This document shows, one piece after another, positions 1 through 9,316 of a stretch of 64,000 bases of DNA; position 1 is the first letter of the stretch; each line of letters opens with the position of its first letter. The notes under the pieces were generated by a model. That model ran no database searches. It had not been told where the DNA came from and saw only the letters and a list, made by a program, of their open reading frames with translations. Made by a program: the position numbers and the translations under genes. The DNA is from Streptomyces akebiae (lineage in GTDB: Bacteria > Actinomycetota > Actinomycetes > Streptomycetales > Streptomycetaceae): assembly GCF_019599145.1 (NCBI RefSeq), contig NZ_CP080647.1, positions 9,734,001 to 9,798,000 of the forward strand, read 5' to 3'.

Positions 1-311
1 TGCCGATCGCGTGCGTGGAGGGCTGGAGCAAGTCGGCACACTGGTCGGGTGTGCGGGTCGTGGATCTGCTGGAGCGGGCGGGCGCGCGGCCGGATGCACG
101 GGTGCGGGTGGTGTCCTTGCAACTGCGTGGTGGCTACCGAGTGTCGGAGATGGGGCATGAGCACGCCCGGGATCCGCTGACCCTGCTCGCCCTGCGCCTG
201 AACGGAGGGGAACTCGACCCCGACCACGGCTACCCGGTGCGGCTCATCGCGCCGAACCGGCCCGGTGTGCTGCAGACCAAGTGGGTGGGTCGGCTGGAGG
301 TGCTGTCGTGA
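1..311 (+). CDS. Molybdopterin-dependent oxidoreductase, C-terminal part (5' end outside window)
   Basis: The reading frame is open from the first base and ends at TGA 309-311. It begins PIACVEGWSKSAHWSG, a motif of the YedY/MsrP-like branch of sulfite-oxidase-type enzymes; by family knowledge the Cys at bases 12-14 is the likely molybdenum-coordinating residue. The end reads LIAPNRPGVLQTKWVGRLEV, also typical of the domain. A GTG at 15 is inside the domain and is not the real start. The last bases overlap the GTG of the next gene, so the two are probably translationally coupled. The substrate is unknown, and N-terminal features (signal peptide or membrane anchor) cannot be seen. Confidence 0.85.
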   Translation, partial: PIACVEGWSKSAHWSGVRVVDLLERAGARPDARVRVVSLQLRGGYRVSEMGHEHARDPLTLLALRLNGGELDPDHGYPVRLIAPNRPGVLQTKWVGRLEVLS

Positions 312-709
312 GGGCGACGCGGGTCCTCGCGGGCGTGGCCGGTGTAGCACTCATGGGCTTCGGTGTGTCGCTGTTGCTGGAAGTCCGTGACCTGACCGGC
401 GTTCTGGTCTGGCTGGGAGGGGCGGTTGTCCTCCACGACGTGGTGATCGCGCCGCTGGTGCTGCTTGCCGGACTGGTGGCGGTGCGCGGTCGTGCGCGTG
501 GCCCCGTGCGCGGGGCGCTGGTTGTCGCGGGCGCCTTGACGGTGGTGGCGTTGCCCGCCCTGCTCCGCCCGGGACGAACGGCCAACTCCTCCGTGCTGCC
601 GCTGGATTACCCGCGCAACTGGATGATCGCACTGGTCGTCGTGGCCGCGGGGACAGCGCTCGTCCTGGCCGCTCGGGGACTCATCCGCCGTCGGCGGCCG
701 CCGACATGA
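308..709 (+). CDS. Small integral membrane protein
   Basis: 133-residue protein starting at GTG 308, which overlaps the TGA of the upstream oxidoreductase (GTGA). This start was preferred to one at 281 because of the coupling. About four hydrophobic segments are visible (roughly residues 5-24, 35-60, 70-90 and 103-125), ending in an Arg-rich tail (RRRRPPT). The family is not recognised. The position right behind a molybdopterin oxidoreductase makes a membrane partner or electron-transfer anchor possible, but no haem- or quinone-binding motif is obvious; this is inference only. Confidence 0.7.
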   Translation: MRATRVLAGVAGVALMGFGVSLLLEVRDLTGVLVWLGGAVVLHDVVIAPLVLLAGLVAVRGRARGPVRGALVVAGALTVVALPALLRPGRTANSSVLPLDYPRNWMIALVVVAAGTALVLAARGLIRRRRPPT

Positions 710-735: not shown

Positions 736-752
736 CTTACGGGTGTCTTACG
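736..752 (+). promoter_or_regulatory. Direct-repeat operator (CTTACG, 11-bp phase), site A
   Basis: CTTACG at 736-741 is repeated exactly at 747-752, one helical turn apart, as expected for OmpR/PhoB-type response regulators. Its centre lies 59 bp upstream of the ATG at 803. Matching sites occur at 1428-1444 and 4543-4559. Confidence 0.65.
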
Positions 753-790
753 CCTTCCCGCCGGACGGTGCCGCTGAGCAGAGGGCCTCC

Positions 791-796
791 TACGGT
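791..796 (+). promoter_or_regulatory. -10 element of a leaderless promoter
   Basis: TACGGT ends 7 bases before the ATG at 803, so transcription would start at or next to the start codon. The -35 region (about 768-773) has no consensus, which fits an activator-dependent promoter. Confidence 0.5.
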
Positions 797-802
797 GACC
801 GG

Positions 803-1423
803 ATGCGATCCCTCCGTGTTCTTCGTTCAACGGCGCTGGTGACGGCCGCGCCACTGATGCTGGCCGTCGCGGGTCTGCTGCATCCGCGGCATCTGACGGC
901 GGCGACGGCAGGTGACTGGGCGGGACTGCACATTGCCCTGCTGCCCGTGTTCCCTCTTCTGGCGCTCGGCCTGATCGTCCCGTTGTGGGGCAGGCCGGGC
1001 CGGGATGCCGAGGGTGCCTTGACGGTGCTCGCGTGGTCCGGGTGCCTGGTCTACGCGGCGTACTACTCCGGGCTCGACGCGGTGGCGGGGATCTCCGCCG
1101 GCACCGTGGTGGATCACGGCATCCGTGGCGCGGCCGGACGGCTGTTCGCGGTCGGCGGCGACCTGGGCCGGACGGGGGTGTACGCGCTGGCCGTGGCCTG
1201 CCTCGCCACGTGCGCGGTGCTGTGGCGCCGGCACGGGGCACGGGTCCTGCCGGGGTCCGTGGTGCTCCTCGCCGCCTGCTGGTTCTTCGTCGACAGCCAC
1301 ATCTTCTGGCCGCGAGGCGTGTTCACCATGCTCGGCTTCGCCGTCGCCTTCACCCTGTTGACGGTGACGACGTACCGGCCGGCGAAGGACACGGCACGGA
1401 CCGAAACGCCTGCGAACCGCTGA
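803..1423 (+). CDS. Multi-pass membrane protein, function unknown
   Basis: 206-residue protein. An upstream GTG at 743 would put operator site A inside the coding sequence and has no ribosome-binding site, so the ATG at 803, placed behind TACGGT as a leaderless start, was chosen. Five to six hydrophobic segments are visible, with Pro/His-rich stretches between (LLHPRHLTA, VDSHIFWPRG). No known domain is recognised. The gene shares a control site with the epimerase gene and the response regulator, suggesting it works in the same cell-envelope or stress programme; that is inference. Confidence 0.75.
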   Translation: MRSLRVLRSTALVTAAPLMLAVAGLLHPRHLTAATAGDWAGLHIALLPVFPLLALGLIVPLWGRPGRDAEGALTVLAWSGCLVYAAYYSGLDAVAGISAGTVVDHGIRGAAGRLFAVGGDLGRTGVYALAVACLATCAVLWRRHGARVLPGSVVLLAACWFFVDSHIFWPRGVFTMLGFAVAFTLLTVTTYRPAKDTARTETPANR

Positions 1424-1427
1424 AAGG

Positions 1428-1444
1428 CTTACGAACCGCTGACG
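1428..1444 (+). promoter_or_regulatory. Direct-repeat operator (CTTACG/CTGACG), site B
   Basis: CTTACG at 1428-1433 and CTGACG at 1439-1444 are 11 bp apart. The centre is 59 bp upstream of the ATG at 1495, the same geometry as site A. The inner sequence CTTACGnnnCGCTGACG is shared with site C at 4543-4559. Confidence 0.65.
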
Positions 1445-1482
1445 TTCCCGAGCCGATCGGCCCGCGGGCGCATGGACGGCCC

Positions 1483-1488
1483 TACGGT
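1483..1488 (+). promoter_or_regulatory. -10 element of a leaderless promoter
   Basis: TACGGT sits 7 bases before the ATG at 1495, identical in sequence and spacing to the element at 791-796. Confidence 0.5.
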
Positions 1489-1494
1489 CGGAGC

Positions 1495-2547
1495 ATGTTG
1501 ATCCTGGTCACCGGAGGTGCGGGCTTCATCGGCTCGCACGTCGTCACCGCCCTCGTCGGCGCCGGGCACGCGGTGCGCGTCCTCGACGCACTGCTGCCCG
1601 CCGCCCACCGCACCGCGCCGCAGATCCCTCCCGGGGTGGACTGGCGGCACGCGGACGTCCGTGACAGGGCGGCCGTCACCGACGCCTTGCGGGGCGTGGA
1701 CGCCGTCTGCCATCAGGCCGCGATGGTGGGCCTCGGCAAGGACTTCGCCGACGCGCCCGACTACGTAGGCTGCAACGATCTCGGTACCGCGGTGCTGCTG
1801 GCCGGCATGGCGGAGGCCGGGGTGAGGCGCCTGGTGCTGGCGAGTTCGATGGTGGTGTACGGCGAGGGGCGCTACACATGCTCCCGGCACGGCGTGGTCC
1901 GGCCGGGGCCGCGCCTGGTGGCGGACCTGGAGGCGAGGTGCTTCGAACCGCCGTGTCCGCACTGCGGTGAGCCGCTCACCGGCGGGCTGGTGGACGAGGA
2001 CGCGCCCGCGGACCCGCGCAACGTGTACGCCGCCACGAAGCTCGCCCAGGAATACCTGGCCGCCGCGTGGGCGCGGGCGACGGGCGGCAGGGTGTCCGCC
2101 CTGCGCTACCACAACGTCTACGGCCCGGGCATGCCGCGCGACACGCCGTACGCCGGGGTCGCGTCCCTGTTCCGGTCCGCGCTCGCGCGCGGGGAAGCAC
2201 CGCGCGTGTTCGAGGACGGCGGGCAGCGGCGGGACTTCGTGCACGTCCGGGACGTGGCCGGGGCCAACCTCGCCGCGCTCGACGGCGTGCGGGGCCTCCC
2301 GGAGGGCGGGGTGCGGGCGTACAACGTCGGCAGCGGGGAGCCGCACACCGTGGGGGAGATGGCCACCGCGCTGGCCGCGGCGTACGGCGATCGGGTACCG
2401 GTCGTCACCGGGGAGTTCCGGCTCGGCGACGTCCGCCACATCACGGCCTCCTCACGACGCCTCCGCGAGGAACTGGGGTGGAAGCCGCAAGTCACCTTCG
2501 CGGAAGGAATGGCGGAGTTCGCGGCGGCACCCCTACGAGCCGGATGA
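1495..2547 (+). CDS. NAD-dependent epimerase/dehydratase with four-Cys insertion
   Basis: 350-residue extended short-chain dehydrogenase of the nucleotide-sugar epimerase/dehydratase type. The Rossmann motif GGAGFIG is at residues 7-13, the serine pair SS at 117-118 and the catalytic Y178xxxK182 in NVYAATK. Between residues 128 and 160 there is an insertion with C129, C149, C154 and C157 (CPHCGEP), which looks like a small zinc-binding element and is not part of the standard fold. The start is the leaderless ATG at 1495; longer readings upstream are out of context. It is convergent with the histidine kinase and probably regulated through site B. Together with the glycosyltransferase and methyltransferase genes it suggests synthesis or modification of a sugar-bearing envelope component; the substrate is unknown. 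Confidence 0.9.
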   Translation: MLILVTGGAGFIGSHVVTALVGAGHAVRVLDALLPAAHRTAPQIPPGVDWRHADVRDRAAVTDALRGVDAVCHQAAMVGLGKDFADAPDYVGCNDLGTAVLLAGMAEAGVRRLVLASSMVVYGEGRYTCSRHGVVRPGPRLVADLEARCFEPPCPHCGEPLTGGLVDEDAPADPRNVYAATKLAQEYLAAAWARATGGRVSALRYHNVYGPGMPRDTPYAGVASLFRSALARGEAPRVFEDGGQRRDFVHVRDVAGANLAALDGVRGLPEGGVRAYNVGSGEPHTVGEMATALAAAYGDRVPVVTGEFRLGDVRHITASSRRLREELGWKPQVTFAEGMAEFAAAPLRAG

Positions 2548-2587
2548 GCCCGGCCGGGCGCCGAATCGCCCAAGGGGAGTGACCAAG

Positions 2588-2616
2588 GGACCGGCCGGGC
2601 TTCCTCCGGCCGGTCC
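2588..2616. terminator. Bidirectional intrinsic terminator hairpin
   Basis: Perfect 11-bp stem (GGACCGGCCGG paired with CCGGCCGGTCC) around a 7-base loop, between the convergent ends of the epimerase and histidine kinase genes. Confidence 0.7.
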
Positions 2617-2655
2617 GCTCCTTCCGGACGATCACGGATCGTTCTTGCCCCGACC

Positions 2656-3768
2656 TCAGACCGCCGCGGGCAGATGGACCTCGAACCGGCAGCCGCCCGG
2701 CACATTGGACACAGCCGCGTGCCCCTGGTGGGCCTCGACGATGCCGCGCACGATGGCCAGGCCCAGTCCGGCTCCGGCGGGCGGGGTCCGGGCGTGGGTG
2801 CCGCGCCAGCCGGTGTCGAAGACGCGGGGCAGGTCCTCGGGGGCGATGCCGCCACAGCCGTCGGTCACCGCCAGCACGACACGGTCGGCCTCCCGGCGTG
2901 CGGAGATCGCGACGGTGCCGTCGGCCGGAGTGCGGCGGATGGCGTTGACGAGCAGGTTGACCAGGACACGGGACATCTCGCGACCGTCGACCTCGACGGG
3001 CACCTGCTCCACCCCGGCGCCCACCAGACGTACCCCATGCTCCCTGGCCAGGGCGTCGGCACCCGCGATGGCGTCGCCGACCAGGTCGTAGACCGACATC
3101 CGGGTCGGGGTCAGGGCGAGTACACCGGCCTGGATGCGTGACAGTTCGAAGAGGTCGCTGACCATTGCGTTCATCCGCCCGACCTCGGTGCGGATGCGGC
3201 TGTGGTAGACACGCGGGTCGTCGACCATGCCGTCCTCCAGGGCCTCGGTCATCGCCTGGAGTCCGGCCAGCGGCGTGCGCAGGTCGTGGGAGATCCATGC
3301 CACCAGCTCGCGGCGGGACGCTTCCAACGCCAGCTCCCGCTCCCGGGAGGCGGCCAGTCTGGCGCTGGTCGCGGCCAGCTGACGGCTCAGCTGGGCGAGT
3401 TCGGCGGTGAGCGCGGTGGTGGGCGGGACGAAGTTGCCGTCGTCGCCGAGGGCGCGGGTGGCCTCGGCGAGGGCCCGGCTTCCCCGGACGACACTGCGGC
3501 CCAGCAGCAGGGCGACGGCGAAGGAGGCGACGGCGGCCATGACGCACACCATCGTGACCACCCACAGGTCGTGCTCCGAGAGGAGCATCGCCCAGGACAC
3601 CAGCATCGTTCCGGCGAGCATCGCGGCGACCGTGACGGCCGCGACGACGGCCAGCGACAGTGCGACCGACCGGTCGCGGAGCAGCCGCAGGGCCGCCGCA
3701 CCGGTCAGCCCTGCGGCTGCCGCGCCCACGGCGGCGTAGAGGGCGATGAGCAGCGTGTCACCGACCAT
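2656..3768 (-). CDS. Sensor histidine kinase
   Basis: 370 residues. Three hydrophobic segments (about 5-27, 35-62 and 69-90) form an N-terminal membrane sensor without a large extracellular loop. A linker leads to the H-box ISHDLRTPL with phospho-acceptor H161, then the N-box NLLVNA (N275), G1 DGCGG (303-307) and G2 GAGLGL (332-337). The ATG at 3768 lies inside the end of the response regulator gene (11-bp overlap), so the pair is translationally coupled. The small sensor domain suggests it senses membrane state or a small ligand. The partner is the regulator encoded directly upstream. Confidence 0.93.
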   Translation of the reverse strand: MVGDTLLIALYAAVGAAAAGLTGAAALRLLRDRSVALSLAVVAAVTVAAMLAGTMLVSWAMLLSEHDLWVVTMVCVMAAVASFAVALLLGRSVVRGSRALAEATRALGDDGNFVPPTTALTAELAQLSRQLAATSARLAASRERELALEASRRELVAWISHDLRTPLAGLQAMTEALEDGMVDDPRVYHSRIRTEVGRMNAMVSDLFELSRIQAGVLALTPTRMSVYDLVGDAIAGADALAREHGVRLVGAGVEQVPVEVDGREMSRVLVNLLVNAIRRTPADGTVAISARREADRVVLAVTDGCGGIAPEDLPRVFDTGWRGTHARTPPAGAGLGLAIVRGIVEAHQGHAAVSNVPGGCRFEVHLPAAV

Positions 3769-4492
3769 CGCCGGCTCCTCTCCCGTGGGTGACGTCCGAC
3801 GGGGGAGGGTCGAAGCGGTATCCGACGCCCCAGACGGTGCTGATCAGATGAGGTTTGGCGGGGTCGTCCTCGACCTTCTCCCGCAGGCGCCGGACGTGGA
3901 CCGTCACCGTCGACAGGTCGCCGAAGTCCCAGCCCCAGACCTGGCGCATGAGTTCCTCGCGGCTCGTTGCCCGGCCGGGGTTGCGGAGAAAGAACTCCAG
4001 CAGATCGAACTCCCTTGTCGTAAGGGCCAGTTCGGCGCCGCTGCGGGTGGCGCGTCGTGCGGTGGGATCCAGGGCGAGCGGGCCGCTGCGCAACCAGGGC
4101 TCCGCGGGCTCGGTCCGCGTGGCGGCCAGGGTTCCTGCGCGGCGGAGCACGGACTCCACACGCAGCACCAGCTCGCGCGGGCTGAAGGGCTTGGTGACGT
4201 AGTCGTCCGCTCCGACCTCCAGGCCGAGAATGCGATCCTCCTCGTCTCCCCGCGCGGTCAGCATGATCACTGGCAGGGGGCCGTTCGCGCGGATGCGGCG
4301 GCACACCTCCAGCCCGTCCATTCCGGGCAGCATCAGGTCCAGTACCACCAGGTCGGGTGGTCGGGAGGCTGCCGTCTCCACGGCGGCGGGGCCGTCGGCG
4401 GCGACGTCGACCGAGAAGCCCGCCCGATGCAGGTACCCCGCGACGACCTCGGAGACGGTGGGATCGTCGTCCACGACAAGTACGCGTTTCAC
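3758..4492 (-). CDS. OmpR/PhoB-family response regulator
   Basis: 244 residues from GTG 4492 (VKRVLVVDDD); an earlier ATG at 4567 would overlap its own operator. Receiver domain at 1-115 with acidic pocket D8-D10, phospho-acceptor D52 (LDLMLPG), T79 and K101 (TKPFSPRE). A winged-helix DNA-binding domain occupies about 145-235 (LTTREFDLLEFFL, WGVGYRFDPP). The gene lies in an operon with the histidine kinase. A direct repeat centred exactly 59 bp upstream of its start matches those before the genes at 803 and 1495, so it probably activates itself and at least two neighbours. Confidence 0.94.
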   Translation of the reverse strand: MKRVLVVDDDPTVSEVVAGYLHRAGFSVDVAADGPAAVETAASRPPDLVVLDLMLPGMDGLEVCRRIRANGPLPVIMLTARGDEEDRILGLEVGADDYVTKPFSPRELVLRVESVLRRAGTLAATRTEPAEPWLRSGPLALDPTARRATRSGAELALTTREFDLLEFFLRNPGRATSREELMRQVWGWDFGDLSTVTVHVRRLREKVEDDPAKPHLISTVWGVGYRFDPPPSDVTHGRGAGDGR

Positions 4493-4542
4493 ACGAGTGA
4501 GTCTCGCACCGGCGTCCCGTCGCCCAGCGGTGCGACGGCGGA

Positions 4543-4559
4543 CGTCAGCGATCCGTAAG
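4543..4559 (-). promoter_or_regulatory. Direct-repeat operator between response regulator and glycosyltransferase, site C
   Basis: On the minus strand CTTACG (4559-4554) and CTGACG (4548-4543) are 11 bp apart, and CTTACGnnnCGCTGACG is conserved with site B. The centre is 59 bp from the regulator start at 4492; a weak -10 (GAGACT, 4505-4500) follows. The same site lies about 55 bp upstream of the glycosyltransferase start on the other strand and could serve both directions. Confidence 0.65.
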
Positions 4560-4592: not shown

Positions 4593-4598
4593 TAGGCT
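4593..4598 (+). promoter_or_regulatory. -10 element of leaderless glycosyltransferase promoter
   Basis: TAGGCT ends 8 bases before GTG 4606, fitting a leaderless transcript of the three-gene operon that follows. Confidence 0.4.
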
Positions 4599-4605
4599 CA
4601 GTGGG

Positions 4606-5337
4606 GTGATCGAGACAACCCCTCCCTCCGTGGACGTCGTGCTGCCCTGCCTCGACGAGGCCGAAGCCCTGCCCTGGGTGCTGCACCGCATCCCGCCCGG
4701 CTGGCGCGCGATCGTCGTCGACAACGGCTCCACCGACGGATCCCCCGACATCGCCCGCGGCCTAGGGGCGCAGGTGGTCCACGAGCCACGCCGCGGCTTC
4801 GGCGCCGCCTGCCACGCGGGGCTGACCGCCGCCACGGCCGACGTGGTCTGCTTCTGTGACTGCGACGCCTCACTCGACCCCCGCCTGCTGCCGGCTGTCG
4901 CCGGACCCGTCCTCGACGGCTCCATCGACCTGGCGCTGGGGCGACGCCGGCCCACCGCTCTCGGGGCCTGGCCCCTGCACGCCCGGCTCGCCAATCTCGA
5001 ACTGGCACGGCTGATCCGCCGTCGTACCGGCCTGCGCCTGCGCGACCTGGGCCCGATGCGGGCGGCTCGCCGCGAAGCGCTGCTGGGCCTGGGCCTGAGC
5101 GATCGCCGCTCCGGCTACCCGCTGCAGATGGTGGTCCGGGCCGCCGACGCCGGCTGGCGCATTCAGGAGACGGACGTGCCGTACCACCCGCGTACGGGCC
5201 GTTCGAAGGTCACCGGTACCTGGCGGGGCACCTGGCAGGCGGTCCGTGACATGCGTGCCGTTCTCGCCGAGCAGCCGGCCGGTACCGGTCACACCTCCAC
5301 CGGCCCGGACGCGCCGATCGCAGGAGGGGCGCGGTGA
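4606..5337 (+). CDS. Family 2 glycosyltransferase
   Basis: 243-residue GT-A fold enzyme. It begins with the nucleotide-binding pattern VVLPCLDEAEALPWVL, followed by VVDNGSTDGS (about 37-46) and the metal/nucleotide-binding DCDAS (85-89), all typical of GT2 enzymes that use nucleotide- or lipid-linked sugars. No membrane helix is seen, so it is cytoplasmic or peripheral. GTG 4606 follows TAGGCT as a leaderless start; an ATG at 4561 would lie upstream of the promoter. Its TGA overlaps the next GTG. The trio of glycosyltransferase, DUF2064 and methyltransferase genes suggests assembly of a modified glycoconjugate, not identified. Confidence 0.88.
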   Translation: MIETTPPSVDVVLPCLDEAEALPWVLHRIPPGWRAIVVDNGSTDGSPDIARGLGAQVVHEPRRGFGAACHAGLTAATADVVCFCDCDASLDPRLLPAVAGPVLDGSIDLALGRRRPTALGAWPLHARLANLELARLIRRRTGLRLRDLGPMRAARREALLGLGLSDRRSGYPLQMVVRAADAGWRIQETDVPYHPRTGRSKVTGTWRGTWQAVRDMRAVLAEQPAGTGHTSTGPDAPIAGGAR

Positions 5338-5981
5338 ACACCGTCACGGCAGCGGCCACACTGCTGATCATCGCCAAGGAACCGGTCCCCGGCCGCGTCA
5401 AGACCCGGCTCACGCCGCCCTACACGCCGTACGAGGCGGCGGCCCTGGCCGAGGCCGCCCTCACCGACACCCTCCGCACCCTGCTCCGGGTCCCGGCCCG
5501 GCGCCGGGTGCTCGTCCTCGACGGAACGCCGGGCCCTTGGCTGCCGCCGGGTTTCGACATCGTCCCGCAGGTGTCAGGAGGGCTGGACGAGCGGATCGCG
5601 GGCGCCTTCGCCCTCTGCGACGACGGGCCGGCACTGCTGGTCGGCATGGACACCCCGCAGCTCACTGCCGGCCTGCTGGCCGATGTCGGCACGGACGGCC
5701 ACGACGCCTGGTTCGGCCCGGCCGCCGACGGCGGCTTCTGGGCTCTCGGCCTCGCCGACCCCTCCCGCGCCGGGTCGCTCGTCCGGGGTGTACCCATGTC
5801 CACCGACCGCACCGGCGCGATCCAGCGGCGCAGACTCGTCGAGGCGGGGCTGACGGTCCGCGACCTCCCACTGCTGCGGGACGTCGACACCGCGTCCGAT
5901 GCCGCCTCGGTCGCCGGCCTGTGTCCACCCGGCTCGCACTTCGCCACCGTCCTGCACTCGCTCGCGGAGGTGACCCGGTGA
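5334..5981 (+). CDS. DUF2064/TIGR04282-family glycosyltransferase-like protein
   Basis: 215 residues. The start LLIIAKEPVPGRVKTRLTP resembles the nucleotide-binding loop of cytidylyl/guanylyl transferases and is diagnostic for the DUF2064 (TIGR04282) family. GMDTPQLT and DGGFWALGL match later conserved blocks. The family is usually found beside a GT2 glycosyltransferase, as here, but its exact reaction is not established. GTG 5334 overlaps the upstream stop (GTGA) and the end overlaps the methyltransferase start in the same way, giving a tightly coupled operon. Confidence 0.88.
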   Translation: MNTVTAAATLLIIAKEPVPGRVKTRLTPPYTPYEAAALAEAALTDTLRTLLRVPARRRVLVLDGTPGPWLPPGFDIVPQVSGGLDERIAGAFALCDDGPALLVGMDTPQLTAGLLADVGTDGHDAWFGPAADGGFWALGLADPSRAGSLVRGVPMSTDRTGAIQRRRLVEAGLTVRDLPLLRDVDTASDAASVAGLCPPGSHFATVLHSLAEVTR

Positions 5982-6907
5982 GCGGCGCGGCTGTCGGTAC
6001 GGAATCCGTCGTCGAGCCGGCGGAACGAAGCGACACGGCGCCCCGGCCGCAGACCGACGTTCAGCCGCCCGAGCGGCTCATCGTGCCCGCGCCGTGCGCC
6101 GACCGCTTCGTGACGTCCGTGGCGCCGGGCGAGCCCTGGACGGACGACCCTTACGCCCAGGCCCTGCGCGCCGGCCGGGGCCCGCTGTACCTGCGCAGCC
6201 TGGGGCCCCTCACCCCGGGGGAGGCCGAGCTGCTTCCACTGGAGGTGGAGCGCTGGTGCGCCGCCCCCGACGCCGCCGACACCGAAGTGCTGGGCCGTTG
6301 CACCGGCCCCGTCCTGGACGTCGGCTGCGGTCCGGGGCGGCTGGTGGCCGCCCTGGCCGCACGTGGCGTCACAGCCCTCGGTGTGGACGTCAGCCCGGCC
6401 GCCGTCGCCCGGACCCGGCGCCACGGCGGAGCCGCCCTACGGCGCTCCGTCTTCGACCGCCTGCCGAGAGAGGGCCGCTGGGGCACGGTCCTGCTGATGG
6501 ACGGCAACGTCGGCATCGGGGGCGACCCGGCAGCCCTGCTCACCCGCCTGCGCGACCTCCTCCGCCCCGGTGGCCGCCTCCTGGCCGAGGCGGCGGACGA
6601 AGACGTGGACCAGCGTCTCACCGTCCGCGTGGAGGACGCCCACGGCCGCCACGGCCGCCCCTTCCCCTGGGCCCGCGTCGGCACGACCGCCCTGCTGCGC
6701 GCGGCCGACTCCACCGGCTGGATCCTCACCGGCCGATGGAGCGTCGGCAGGCGCTCCTTCCTGGAACTCCACCGCCCCACGTCGGAGCGCCAGGAGCCGG
6801 ACGCGGCCCGGGACGGGCACGTCGCGCCGCCCGATCACACCCCCACAACCGGTGAGGGGCCACAGGTCAACGGCCCGTCCGGGCTCCATGGGCACAGGGT
6901 TCGGTGA
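5978..6907 (+). CDS. SAM-dependent class I methyltransferase
   Basis: 309 residues. Motif I LDVGCGPGRL (about 113-122) binds S-adenosylmethionine, and GVDVSPAAV supplies the acidic residue at the end of strand 2. The first 60 residues are rich in Pro, Glu and Thr and may be disordered, as is the tail after about residue 270. GTG 5978 overlaps the DUF2064 stop by four bases. The substrate is unknown; context suggests a sugar or lipid intermediate made by the two upstream enzymes. Confidence 0.86.
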   Translation: MSGAAVGTESVVEPAERSDTAPRPQTDVQPPERLIVPAPCADRFVTSVAPGEPWTDDPYAQALRAGRGPLYLRSLGPLTPGEAELLPLEVERWCAAPDAADTEVLGRCTGPVLDVGCGPGRLVAALAARGVTALGVDVSPAAVARTRRHGGAALRRSVFDRLPREGRWGTVLLMDGNVGIGGDPAALLTRLRDLLRPGGRLLAEAADEDVDQRLTVRVEDAHGRHGRPFPWARVGTTALLRAADSTGWILTGRWSVGRRSFLELHRPTSERQEPDAARDGHVAPPDHTPTTGEGPQVNGPSGLHGHRVR

Positions 6908-7528: not shown

Positions 7529-9316
7529 TCACGAGGCGATCTCGACGGTCTTGGAGACGGTGACCTGGTCGATGTCCGAGACGCGGACGGTGGCCCGCAT
7601 CGTCCATGTTCCGGCGAGGGGGAGGTCGAGGGTGTCACTGCCCCAGTAGCCGCTCTGGTCGACGAGTTCGGCATCGAGCGGGCCGACGCGTTTGTCGGTC
7701 TGGGTGAAGGTGAGGCGTAGTTCGGGGATGGCGATGAGGCCGCCGTCGGCACCGAATACGACGGCCTCGACCACGTTCCGGCCGACCCGGCCCGGTTCCA
7801 GGGTGATCTGCACCCTGCCGCTCCCGGCCGGAGCGCCCGTGTCGAACGGGACCACGGTCAGGTTCACGTCCGGCTGTCCGGACACCGTGGAGGCTCGCGC
7901 CGCCTCGACGGTGGCCCGCCCCGGTTGGCTGCCCGTCAGCACGGTCGTGAGCGCGAGCACTGCCACACCGACGACGGCCTCCGCGAGCACGGACCTGCGC
8001 AGCCCGCGCCGGCCGCCCTCAGAGCCGATGCCGGCTGCTTCAGGCACGGCACCGGGGCCGTCCTTCGTCGGCGGGTCGGGCGGTGTGCCTTGGCCGCTGC
8101 CCGCGGTGACGAGCACGGGTTGTACCGGGGGCACGCGCAGTAGCCGCTCAGTCCAGCTCCGGGAGTACGACGCCGCCGTCAGCATGAGGATCACGGTCCC
8201 GGTCTTCAGCGCGAGCACCCTGCCGTAGGGGGTGGTGAACGCGTCCCAGGAACCGAGGCCGCGCCAGGACTGGTAGATGCCGGTGGCCGTCAGTACGCCC
8301 ACGGCACCGAGGGCGAGCCGGGAGAAGCGACCGACGACGGTGGGCCGGAGCGGGTCGTCGGCCGGTGCCCGGTACAGCGTGACCAGCAGTGCGGTCAGCC
8401 CGCCGAGCCAAACGGACATGGCCAGCAGGTGCAGTGCGGCGGACGTCATCGCGGTCGGCACCTGGATGCCCGTCGAGGCGTGCTCGGCCGCTGCCCAGGT
8501 CGTGGCCAGAGCGAGAGTGAGGGCGATGCCCACCGTGACCGTGCGCCGGTCGTGTCGCTGTTCGGACCTGCCGTGCCTCAGGAGCATGGCGACCAGCAGG
8601 AGTAGAGCGAGACGGACCAGCAGTGCGATGCCCGGTCGGCTGTCCACCGTGTCGCGCAGAAGTCGAGGGTCGAGCACACCGGCCGGTCCGTCTCCGCTCG
8701 CGTACGGACCGCGCATCAGCAGCAGCGCGGTCGTCGCCAGTGTCAGGGCCCACCAGCCGGCCAGGAACGGGCCGCGCAACGCCTGCGTGGCCCCGGCACC
8801 GGGACGGCAGACCTGCACGAACACGGCGGTGCCGATCAGCAGGGCCAGGCCCCCGTAGGCGACGTAGCGGCCGATGCCGTACAGCACGTCGACCGACGGG
8901 GCCACGGCAGGCTCGGCGGCGGATGCGGCGCGGGTCTGCGAAGGCGTGCCGACGGAGAAGGTGAAGGCACCGGAGACGGCGTGGCTGTCCTCGGAAAGCA
9001 CCCGCCAGGAGACCGTGTACGTGCCCTGCTGCAGACCGTCGGTCAGGGGCACGCGCGCGGTGTCGGTCCTACCGTCCGCACGCACGGGGTCGCCGGCGGT
9101 CACCGGTCGGCTGTCGGGGTCGAGGACGCGCACCGAGTCCTCGGTGAGCGCGACGGACTCGCTGAAGGAGACCGTGACGTGTTCCGGCGCGGTCTTCAGC
9201 ACCATGCCCTCGCGCGGGTCGCTGCCGGTCAGCACCGCGTGAGCGGAGGCGGGTGCCGCGCCGGCGAGGAGGGTACCGGCCAGCAGCACAACCACCACCA
9301 GCAGTGCCTTGCCCAT
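7529..9316 (-). CDS. CopC-CopD copper transport fusion protein
   Basis: 595 residues from ATG 9316. Residues 1-25 are a signal peptide ending in APASA, leaving mature HAVLTGSDP, whose N-terminal His is a classical CopC copper ligand. A CopC beta-sandwich extends to about 125. About eight membrane helices (roughly 150-450) form the CopD part, with conserved His in SAALHLLAMSVWLGG. The C-terminal 110 residues (VNLTVVPFDTGAPAG onward) form an extracytoplasmic domain like those found at the ends of actinobacterial CopCD proteins. The role is copper binding outside the membrane and copper import or resistance. It appears monocistronic, with a hairpin downstream. Confidence 0.92.
   Translation of the reverse strand: MGKALLVVVVLLAGTLLAGAAPASAHAVLTGSDPREGMVLKTAPEHVTVSFSESVALTEDSVRVLDPDSRPVTAGDPVRADGRTDTARVPLTDGLQQGTYTVSWRVLSEDSHAVSGAFTFSVGTPSQTRAASAAEPAVAPSVDVLYGIGRYVAYGGLALLIGTAVFVQVCRPGAGATQALRGPFLAGWWALTLATTALLLMRGPYASGDGPAGVLDPRLLRDTVDSRPGIALLVRLALLLLVAMLLRHGRSEQRHDRRTVTVGIALTLALATTWAAAEHASTGIQVPTAMTSAALHLLAMSVWLGGLTALLVTLYRAPADDPLRPTVVGRFSRLALGAVGVLTATGIYQSWRGLGSWDAFTTPYGRVLALKTGTVILMLTAASYSRSWTERLLRVPPVQPVLVTAGSGQGTPPDPPTKDGPGAVPEAAGIGSEGGRRGLRRSVLAEAVVGVAVLALTTVLTGSQPGRATVEAARASTVSGQPDVNLTVVPFDTGAPAGSGRVQITLEPGRVGRNVVEAVVFGADGGLIAIPELRLTFTQTDKRVGPLDAELVDQSGYWGSDTLDLPLAGTWTMRATVRVSDIDQVTVSKTVEIAS

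Follow-up and report, generated by a model that had tools for sequence, protein, structure and literature searches.

PhoB/PhoP-type operators (PHO boxes) are built of tandem half-sites with an 11-bp periodicity, which are bound head to tail. The OmpR-type two-component system PmrAB controls an ArnT-type pathway and, like the mycobacterial polyprenyl-phosphate-sugar/GT-C pathways, the PmrAB-ArnT pathway combines a sugar-nucleotide enzyme, a GT2 synthase and a GT-C transferase. Intramembrane-sensing kinases of the LiaS/BceS type have membrane segments and almost no extracytoplasmic domain. About two thirds of the two-component systems of Streptomyces coelicolor have no known function, according to the available part of a review (PMC9739842). 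The repeats of its regulator MtrA are given as G/T-T-G/A-A-C-C-N5-G-T-G/T-A-C-N in the accessible sections of PMC5650626, and MtrA is thought to activate its own promoter (accessible sections of PMC5487470 and PMC13189361). Here we describe direct repeats, CTTACG-N5-CT(T/G)ACG, at a locus of Streptomyces akebiae (NZ_CP080647.1) that lies partly within a stretch of 64,000 nt, hereafter the window, and partly to its left. These repeats are very probably operators of a local OmpR/PhoB-type response regulator (encoded at 3758-4492), which would activate leaderless genes of the locus from upstream. They differ from PHO boxes in half-site sequence, and no phosphate genes are present at the locus. 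As at the MtrA sites of Streptomyces, the regulator is of OmpR type and two short direct repeats stand 5 bp apart (PMC5650626, accessible sections). However, the MtrA motif is loosely conserved and has many targets, whereas in the present repeats CTTACG hardly varies and a single locus holds all exact sites. Positions are those of the window unless prefixed L005, which denotes the home-locus region (L005 coordinate = window + 12000).

A preliminary description had placed the repeat at three positions in the window, each centred 59 bp upstream of a start codon (803, 1495 and 4492). All three matches are exact, with coordinates and strands as described (Table 1), and the distance is 59 bp in each case. 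A scan of the genome (10.55 Mb, two contigs) for CTTACGN5CTKACG returned four exact copies against 0 for the reversed pattern used as control, and all four lie within 7.7 kb (C1:9730879-9738559). A first-order Markov model of the window predicts approximately 0.003 exact matches per 64 kb, or 0.5 per genome, a rough figure, since 20 Mb of simulated sequence gave a single match. Taken together, the four copies, the empty control and the Markov expectation place the repeats beyond chance. Allowing up to two mismatches, the window contains 13 matches where 6.0 are expected, a number reached in 2 of 100 shuffles. With one mismatch allowed the genome-wide count is 39, of which four are the exact copies, and the reversed control gives 29; therefore such matches elsewhere in the genome are background, carry no weight and were rejected as further regulon members. 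Matches to a relaxed pattern were rejected likewise: of seven, four were the exact copies already counted, and the control gave 3. Two sites had been overlooked in the preliminary description, namely the fourth exact copy (L005:8879-8895, 3.1 kb left of the window) and a degenerate one 55 bp before the oxidoreductase gene (Table 1).

Conservation of the repeats before orthologous genes, the check that had been suggested, was examined in two samples, and sites at fixed spacing were found before the regulator, epimerase, membrane-protein and divergent glycosyltransferase genes. The first sample comprised 101 genomes of the genus, the home genome (G000) included. Epimerase matches (E <= 1e-60) occur in 77 of these and regulator matches (E <= 1e-85) in 82. 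The 206-aa membrane protein is present in 7, all with the exact motif close upstream. In four of them (G000, G001, G007, G067) the motif centre is 59 bp away from the aligned start; in G091, G079 and G095 the alignment begins at residue 3 or 5, and the distance to that residue is 45-52 bp. The second sample comprised 85 Streptomyces regions including the home locus, drawn from fetched cluster regions and from relatives of the 206-aa protein in named genomes, and picked by protein match rather than by motif. Sites in these regions were counted in two ways. The relaxed-motif count accepted sites up to 130 bp upstream of genes aligned within 3 residues of the start, with identical upstreams removed. 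The strict-motif count accepted sites up to 500 bp upstream on either strand with alignment up to twelve residues from the start, identical upstreams being kept and one contig counted twice (as L074 and L124).

By the relaxed count, a site precedes 25 of 25 genes for the 206-aa protein (19 at exactly -59), 19 of 20 oxidoreductase genes (18 reversed at exactly -55) and 41 of 57 regulator genes, where distances from the first residue of the window protein scatter because many Streptomyces regulators carry an N-terminal extension. Sites were also found in 24 of 27 GT2 upstreams, and the conserved reversed site at -55 in 16 of them supports the earlier suggestion that the divergent glycosyltransferase operon is under the same control. 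The epimerase has a site in 45 of 52 upstreams whichever motif is used, always forward and at -58 to -61. The strict motif precedes the genes for the 206-aa protein (28/29), oxidoreductase (20/25), GT2 (43/53), regulator (44/60) and DUF1996 protein (9/9); within the same 500 bp it is absent before those for the DUF2064 protein (0/53), kinase (0/46), small membrane protein (0/24), methyltransferase (0/9) and a second type of oxidoreductase (0/9). Overall, strict matches number 205 in 1.19 Mb, compared to 4 after mononucleotide shuffling (CTTACG repeats counting twice). The CTTACG-N5 layout of the repeat as first described is retained, but the second half-site is wider, reading CTTACG-N5-(C/G)TGAC(G/A), and the order of the half-sites can be swapped. 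The commonest epimerase site is CTTACG-N5-(G)TGAC(G/A), with its half-sites in this order or exchanged, and matches to CTTACGN5GTGACG are found in 46 of the 101 genomes, some at the epimerase. A consensus TCCTTACGAAACGCGGACGTC is common to 29 of 60 regulator/GT2 regions; the alignment was anchored on the motif and admitted those regulator upstreams in which the strict motif was present at a sufficient distance from the first aligned residue, and the motif core is therefore conserved by construction.

The divergent regulator and GT2 genes are both visible in 11 relatives, and in all 11 the spacing of the sites tracks the gap between the genes. Where the starts are 113-114 bp apart (seven relatives) there is one site, at -58/-59 and -55; the interval in the window is the 114-bp form. 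With a gap of 140 bp (four relatives) each gene has a site of its own, the regulator at -59 and GT2 at -55, and the two copies lie 26 bp from each other. The single site could serve transcription in both directions.

Hexamers resembling a -10 element (TACGGT, TACGGT and GAGACT) end 6-7 bp 5′ of the start codons at 803, 1495 and 4492, a position that is known from actinomycete promoters of leaderless genes and suggests these genes to be leaderless. TA occupies -12/-11 in 89% of 28 distinct upstreams orthologous to that of the 206-aa protein gene, and the TAGGGT-type hexamer of GT2 (T in 93% and A in 90% of 29 aligned regions) keeps a constant distance from the motif. The phosphorylated regulator would bind as a head-to-tail dimer to the two half-sites, one 11-bp turn apart, and activate transcription of the leaderless genes from this upstream position. 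The site would function in both orientations, forward when centred at approximately -59 and reversed at -55, and shifts within an orientation are of 11 bp (forward mainly -59, also -70 and -48; reversed -55 or -44). A protein contact centre roughly 2 bp 3′ of the repeat centre would put the dimer near -57 in both orientations, and the 4-bp offset between them is what such a dimer would be expected to give. A dimer near -57 may contact the C-terminal domain of the RNA polymerase alpha subunit. We infer upstream activation that is helically phased and tolerant of orientation. An alternative is that the regulator binds but mainly represses, or regulates only itself while the other sites serve for fine-tuning. 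OmpR-type regulators can both activate and repress. However, some 50 bp separate the sites from the predicted transcript start, which leaves the -35/-10 region clear and is a usual activator position, and a spacing that varies by no more than 1-3 bp in either orientation argues for activation, since repression would not need it; we regard this alternative as improbable.

The binding protein might instead be a global regulator of OmpR type that recognises a comparable 11-bp direct repeat, such as MtrA, the local regulator being incidental. The S. coelicolor MtrA repeats do share the 6-5-6 layout and TNAC cores, and at whiI an MtrA site spans -69 to -53 (PMC5650626, accessible sections). Among solved structures the window regulator is closest to RegX3 and MtrA, and its best NCBIfam score is to the MtrA model (NF040689, 236.9 bits). 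That score is below the cut-off of 300, and a separate MtrA scoring 395.3 bits is encoded at C1:6215421; the window regulator was thus rejected as MtrA itself. Exact sites confined to one 7.7-kb locus would not be expected of a global regulator, and the 7-bp half-site consensus for MtrA in the accessible sections of a later paper (PMC13189361) does not contain this motif. In five genomes the epimerase was found and the regulator, at E <= 1e-85, was not. In two of these (G019, G046) the regulator is broken or cut in the assembly, and sites are kept (strict in G046, degenerate in G019). In the remaining three (G043, G089, which has a 54-residue remnant, and G100) neither a kinase match nor a strict motif was found in the fetched regions, and the epimerase site is lost. 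MtrA is above its model cut-off in 7 of 7 genomes checked, these three included; therefore loss of the site follows the local kinase/regulator pair and not MtrA, which was rejected as the binder, and we consider this second explanation quite unlikely. If the repeats were alike by chance, or were copies of an element multiplied by local duplication, a short motif at one locus and single exact matches elsewhere in related genomes would be accounted for, but the spacing and half-sites are kept across divergent species while flanking bases vary, the downstream genes are unrelated and operon-internal genes have no site, leaving this a negligible prospect.

The sites, their spacing, co-conservation and co-loss with the kinase/regulator pair thus make the operator of the local regulator the most likely identity of the repeats. 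Where the pair is absent from the cluster and a homologue is found elsewhere, sites are kept, before the epimerase in G064 and before the oxidoreductase and close upstream of GT2 in G034. In the fetched locus of S. scabiei 87.22 no pair is seen, and the best regulator match elsewhere in that genome shares 79% identity; the 206-aa protein site is retained, as is the epimerase site with one base changed. S. stelliscabiei DSM 41803, which encodes a regulator protein identical to that of the window, has two copies of the locus with regulators 100% and 87% identical to the window's, and S. scabiei 87.22 has neither close copy (L116, L138, L117).

Regulator homologues (E <= 1e-80) were found in 115 of 296 genomes of the class, comprising 24 of 28 from the same genus and 91 of 268 others, and in 45 of 114 genera. 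Twenty of the 91 matching non-genus genomes were sampled, beginning at the head of the list; some further down were skipped where their family was already represented. Regulator, epimerase and GT2 occur together in 15 of these 20 regions. By the relaxed motif, a site precedes 12 of 16 regulators (8 at -58/-59) and 10 of 15 epimerases. Eight of the latter are reversed at exactly -44, all from one family (f18), and the other two are forward, at -70 and -60.

Several observations weigh against the proposed operator function. At the home locus itself the oxidoreductase site is degenerate, and the DUF1996 sites lie 120-415 bp upstream in the 9 of 9 cases scored (two from one contig) rather than at -59. 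G023 has the regulator, yet its relocated epimerase lacks a site. The pattern is missing from 7 of 52 epimerase upstreams (degenerate in L083, L108, L143 and L161, none visible in L146, L147 and L159), and 16 of 60 regulator upstreams have no strict site within 500 bp on either strand. Outside the genus no relaxed-motif site was found before 5 of 15 epimerases and 4 of 16 regulators. Some positions fall off the helical turn, at -39 (two) and -50 (one) for the 206-aa protein and at -95 and -119 (one each) for the oxidoreductase, and GT2 and regulator sites are scattered where the true start codons are uncertain. Finally, an exact match occurs somewhere in 55 of the 101 genomes (100 matches, against 42 for the reversed control), so chance sites are common across the genus. 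Of 18 regulator upstreams without a forward site, 11 belong to homologues outside the epimerase/GT2 cluster, two of which (L153, L160) have a reversed site near -55. In a further two such homologues with the same recognition segment (L154, L156), CTTACG is found upstream at differing spacing, by eye partly 10-bp.

The fourth exact site is accompanied by a TAACTC hexamer at the matching distance, and the DUF1996 start is 414 bp downstream. Given the variable distance of the DUF1996 sites, the gene may have a long leader of variable length, or a small gene may have gone unannotated. The gene for the polytopic GT-C protein was rejected as a target: a site was found in 3 of 11 upstreams, at -273 to -347, and apparently belongs to the divergent DUF1996 gene. 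The regulon at the locus would comprise the kinase/regulator operon, the epimerase, the 206-aa membrane protein, the GT2-DUF2064-methyltransferase operon, the molybdopterin oxidoreductase with its small membrane partner and, through a long leader, probably the DUF1996 gene. With a predicted operator before its own operon, the two-component system is most likely autoregulated.

Table 1. Predicted sites, putative promoter elements and genes of the locus.
Feature	Position	Strand	Remarks
Predicted operator CTTACGGGTGTCTTACG, 206-aa membrane-protein gene	736..752	+	Exact match; centre -59
Predicted operator CTTACGAACCGCTGACG, epimerase gene	1428..1444	+	Exact match; centre -59
Predicted operator CTTACGGATCGCTGACG, regulator/glycosyltransferase interval	4543..4559	-	-59 from regulator start; -55 from glycosyltransferase start, opposite orientation
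Degenerate reversed predicted operator CTTACGAAGTCGGAACG, oxidoreductase gene	L005:11112-11128	-	Centre -55
Putative -10 hexamer TACGGT, 206-aa protein gene	791..796	+	From sequence; start 803
Putative -10 hexamer TACGGT, epimerase gene	1483..1488	+	From sequence; start 1495; family form CCTAGCGT
Putative -10 hexamer GAGACT, regulator gene	4500..4505	-	From sequence; GAGGCT-type in relatives
Putative -10 hexamer TAGGCT, divergent glycosyltransferase gene	4593..4598	+	TAGGGT-type; 42-47 bp from operator centre
Polytopic GT-C glycosyltransferase	L005:7119-8540	-	GT-C fold found; ArnT and AftA are fold matches
DUF1996 protein	L005:9301-10806		
Membrane molybdopterin oxidoreductase (PF00174)	L005:11175-12311 (3′ end = window 1..311)	+	Family match
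Small membrane protein	308..709	+	Probably co-transcribed with oxidoreductase gene; no site of its own
206-aa membrane protein	803..1423	+	No significant Pfam match
NAD-dependent sugar epimerase/dehydratase (PF01370)	1495..2547	+	
Histidine kinase (HisKA + HATPase_c)	2656..3768	-	H161 conserved in 61/62 aligned sequences
OmpR/PhoB-type response regulator	3758..4492	-	Response_reg + Trans_reg_C; 3′ end overlaps kinase start
GT2 glycosyltransferase, polyprenyl-phosphate-sugar-synthase-like	4606..5337	+	Best NCBIfam match dolichyl-phosphate hexose transferase, 75.8 bits (cut-off 375)
DUF2064 / TIGR04282-like protein	5334..5981	+	Operon with GT2
Methyltransferase-domain protein	5978..6907	+	Operon with GT2

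The regulator had been assigned to the OmpR/PhoB type, and matches to PF00072 (receiver) and PF00486 (C-terminal winged helix) far above the cut-off agree with this. Residues D9, D10, D52 and T79 and the recognition segment STVTVH are invariant in 60 aligned sequences, and K101 is found in 61. One protein alignment comprised 41 of 120 listed proteins plus one locus protein, and one aligned set was without L127, L128, L135 and L139, a stop being reported only for L127. The epimerase had been described as having four cysteines; of these, C129, C154 and C157 are each found in 52-53 of 54 aligned sequences and are conserved, whereas C149 occurs in 2 and is not. The protein shares 95% identity with a protein cluster that bears the name of S. 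scabiei, and its relatives are labelled 'dTDP-L-rhamnose 4-epimerase' in some JGI records. A Pfam search gave nothing significant for the small membrane protein. An open frame at ~7529-9280 on the minus strand has, by eye, a look that we take to be CopC/CopD-like. A second cluster with GT2, DUF2064, methyltransferase, oxidoreductase and GT-C genes is found in the home genome at C1 ~1,087,400-1,092,200 (L142), and is without epimerase, kinase and regulator. The surrounding 20-kb stretch contains two strict matches, one ~9 kb left of the GT2 match and the other near its right end.

The hydropathy profile of the kinase has three segments (1-19, 39-57 and 70-88), all within the first 90 residues and with short loops between them, which suggests sensing in or at the membrane. 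In this respect the kinase may resemble the LiaS/BceS-type kinases of Gram-positive envelope-stress systems; however, no transporter or LiaF partner was recognised in the locus. The genes likely specify a pathway in which a sugar nucleotide is converted to a polyprenyl-phosphate sugar, from which the GT-C enzyme would transfer the sugar extracellularly, under the control of a kinase of the intramembrane-sensing type. Compared to the PmrAB-ArnT and mycobacterial pathways the sugar enzymes are different, a methyltransferase and a molybdopterin oxidoreductase are added and, at the conserved spacing, no operator precedes the GT-C gene.

No paper describing the motif or the system was found in a literature search that missed most subscription journals. 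Neither motif nor locus was met in the accessible sections of papers on MtrA (PMC5487470, PMC5650626, PMC9045223, PMC13189361), CrsR (PMC12623338) and CutR (PMC10433416). The available text of the two-component review (PMC9739842) has no occurrence of 'epimerase' or 'glycosyltransferase', and that of a synteny survey (PMC13118837) none of 'epimerase' or 'DUF2064'. A family search named no Streptomyces among the matching control genomes and gave no tie to S. coelicolor locus tags.

The repeats are a real finding, and their interpretation is well supported by comparative genomics. More speculatively, the locus could belong to an actinomycete-wide envelope-glycosylation regulon, in which one regulator would activate leaderless promoters from either strand as long as its dimer keeps to the same helical face (-59 in the forward orientation; -55/-44 reversed; -70/-48 at whole turns). 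Its intramembrane-sensing kinase would couple an envelope signal to the synthesis of a polyprenyl-phosphate sugar and its extracellular transfer, together with a membrane molybdopterin enzyme, as a Gram-positive counterpart of PmrAB-ArnT. We put this wider view forward tentatively, as somewhat short of an even prospect. One widely conserved two-component system gains a defined predicted operator, a promoter geometry and a compact target list. The two-orientation spacing rule is a precise prediction of how an OmpR-type activator may reach RNA polymerase at leaderless promoters of actinomycetes, and the locus directs attention to a pathway of envelope glycosylation that is unstudied yet conserved across several families of actinomycetes.

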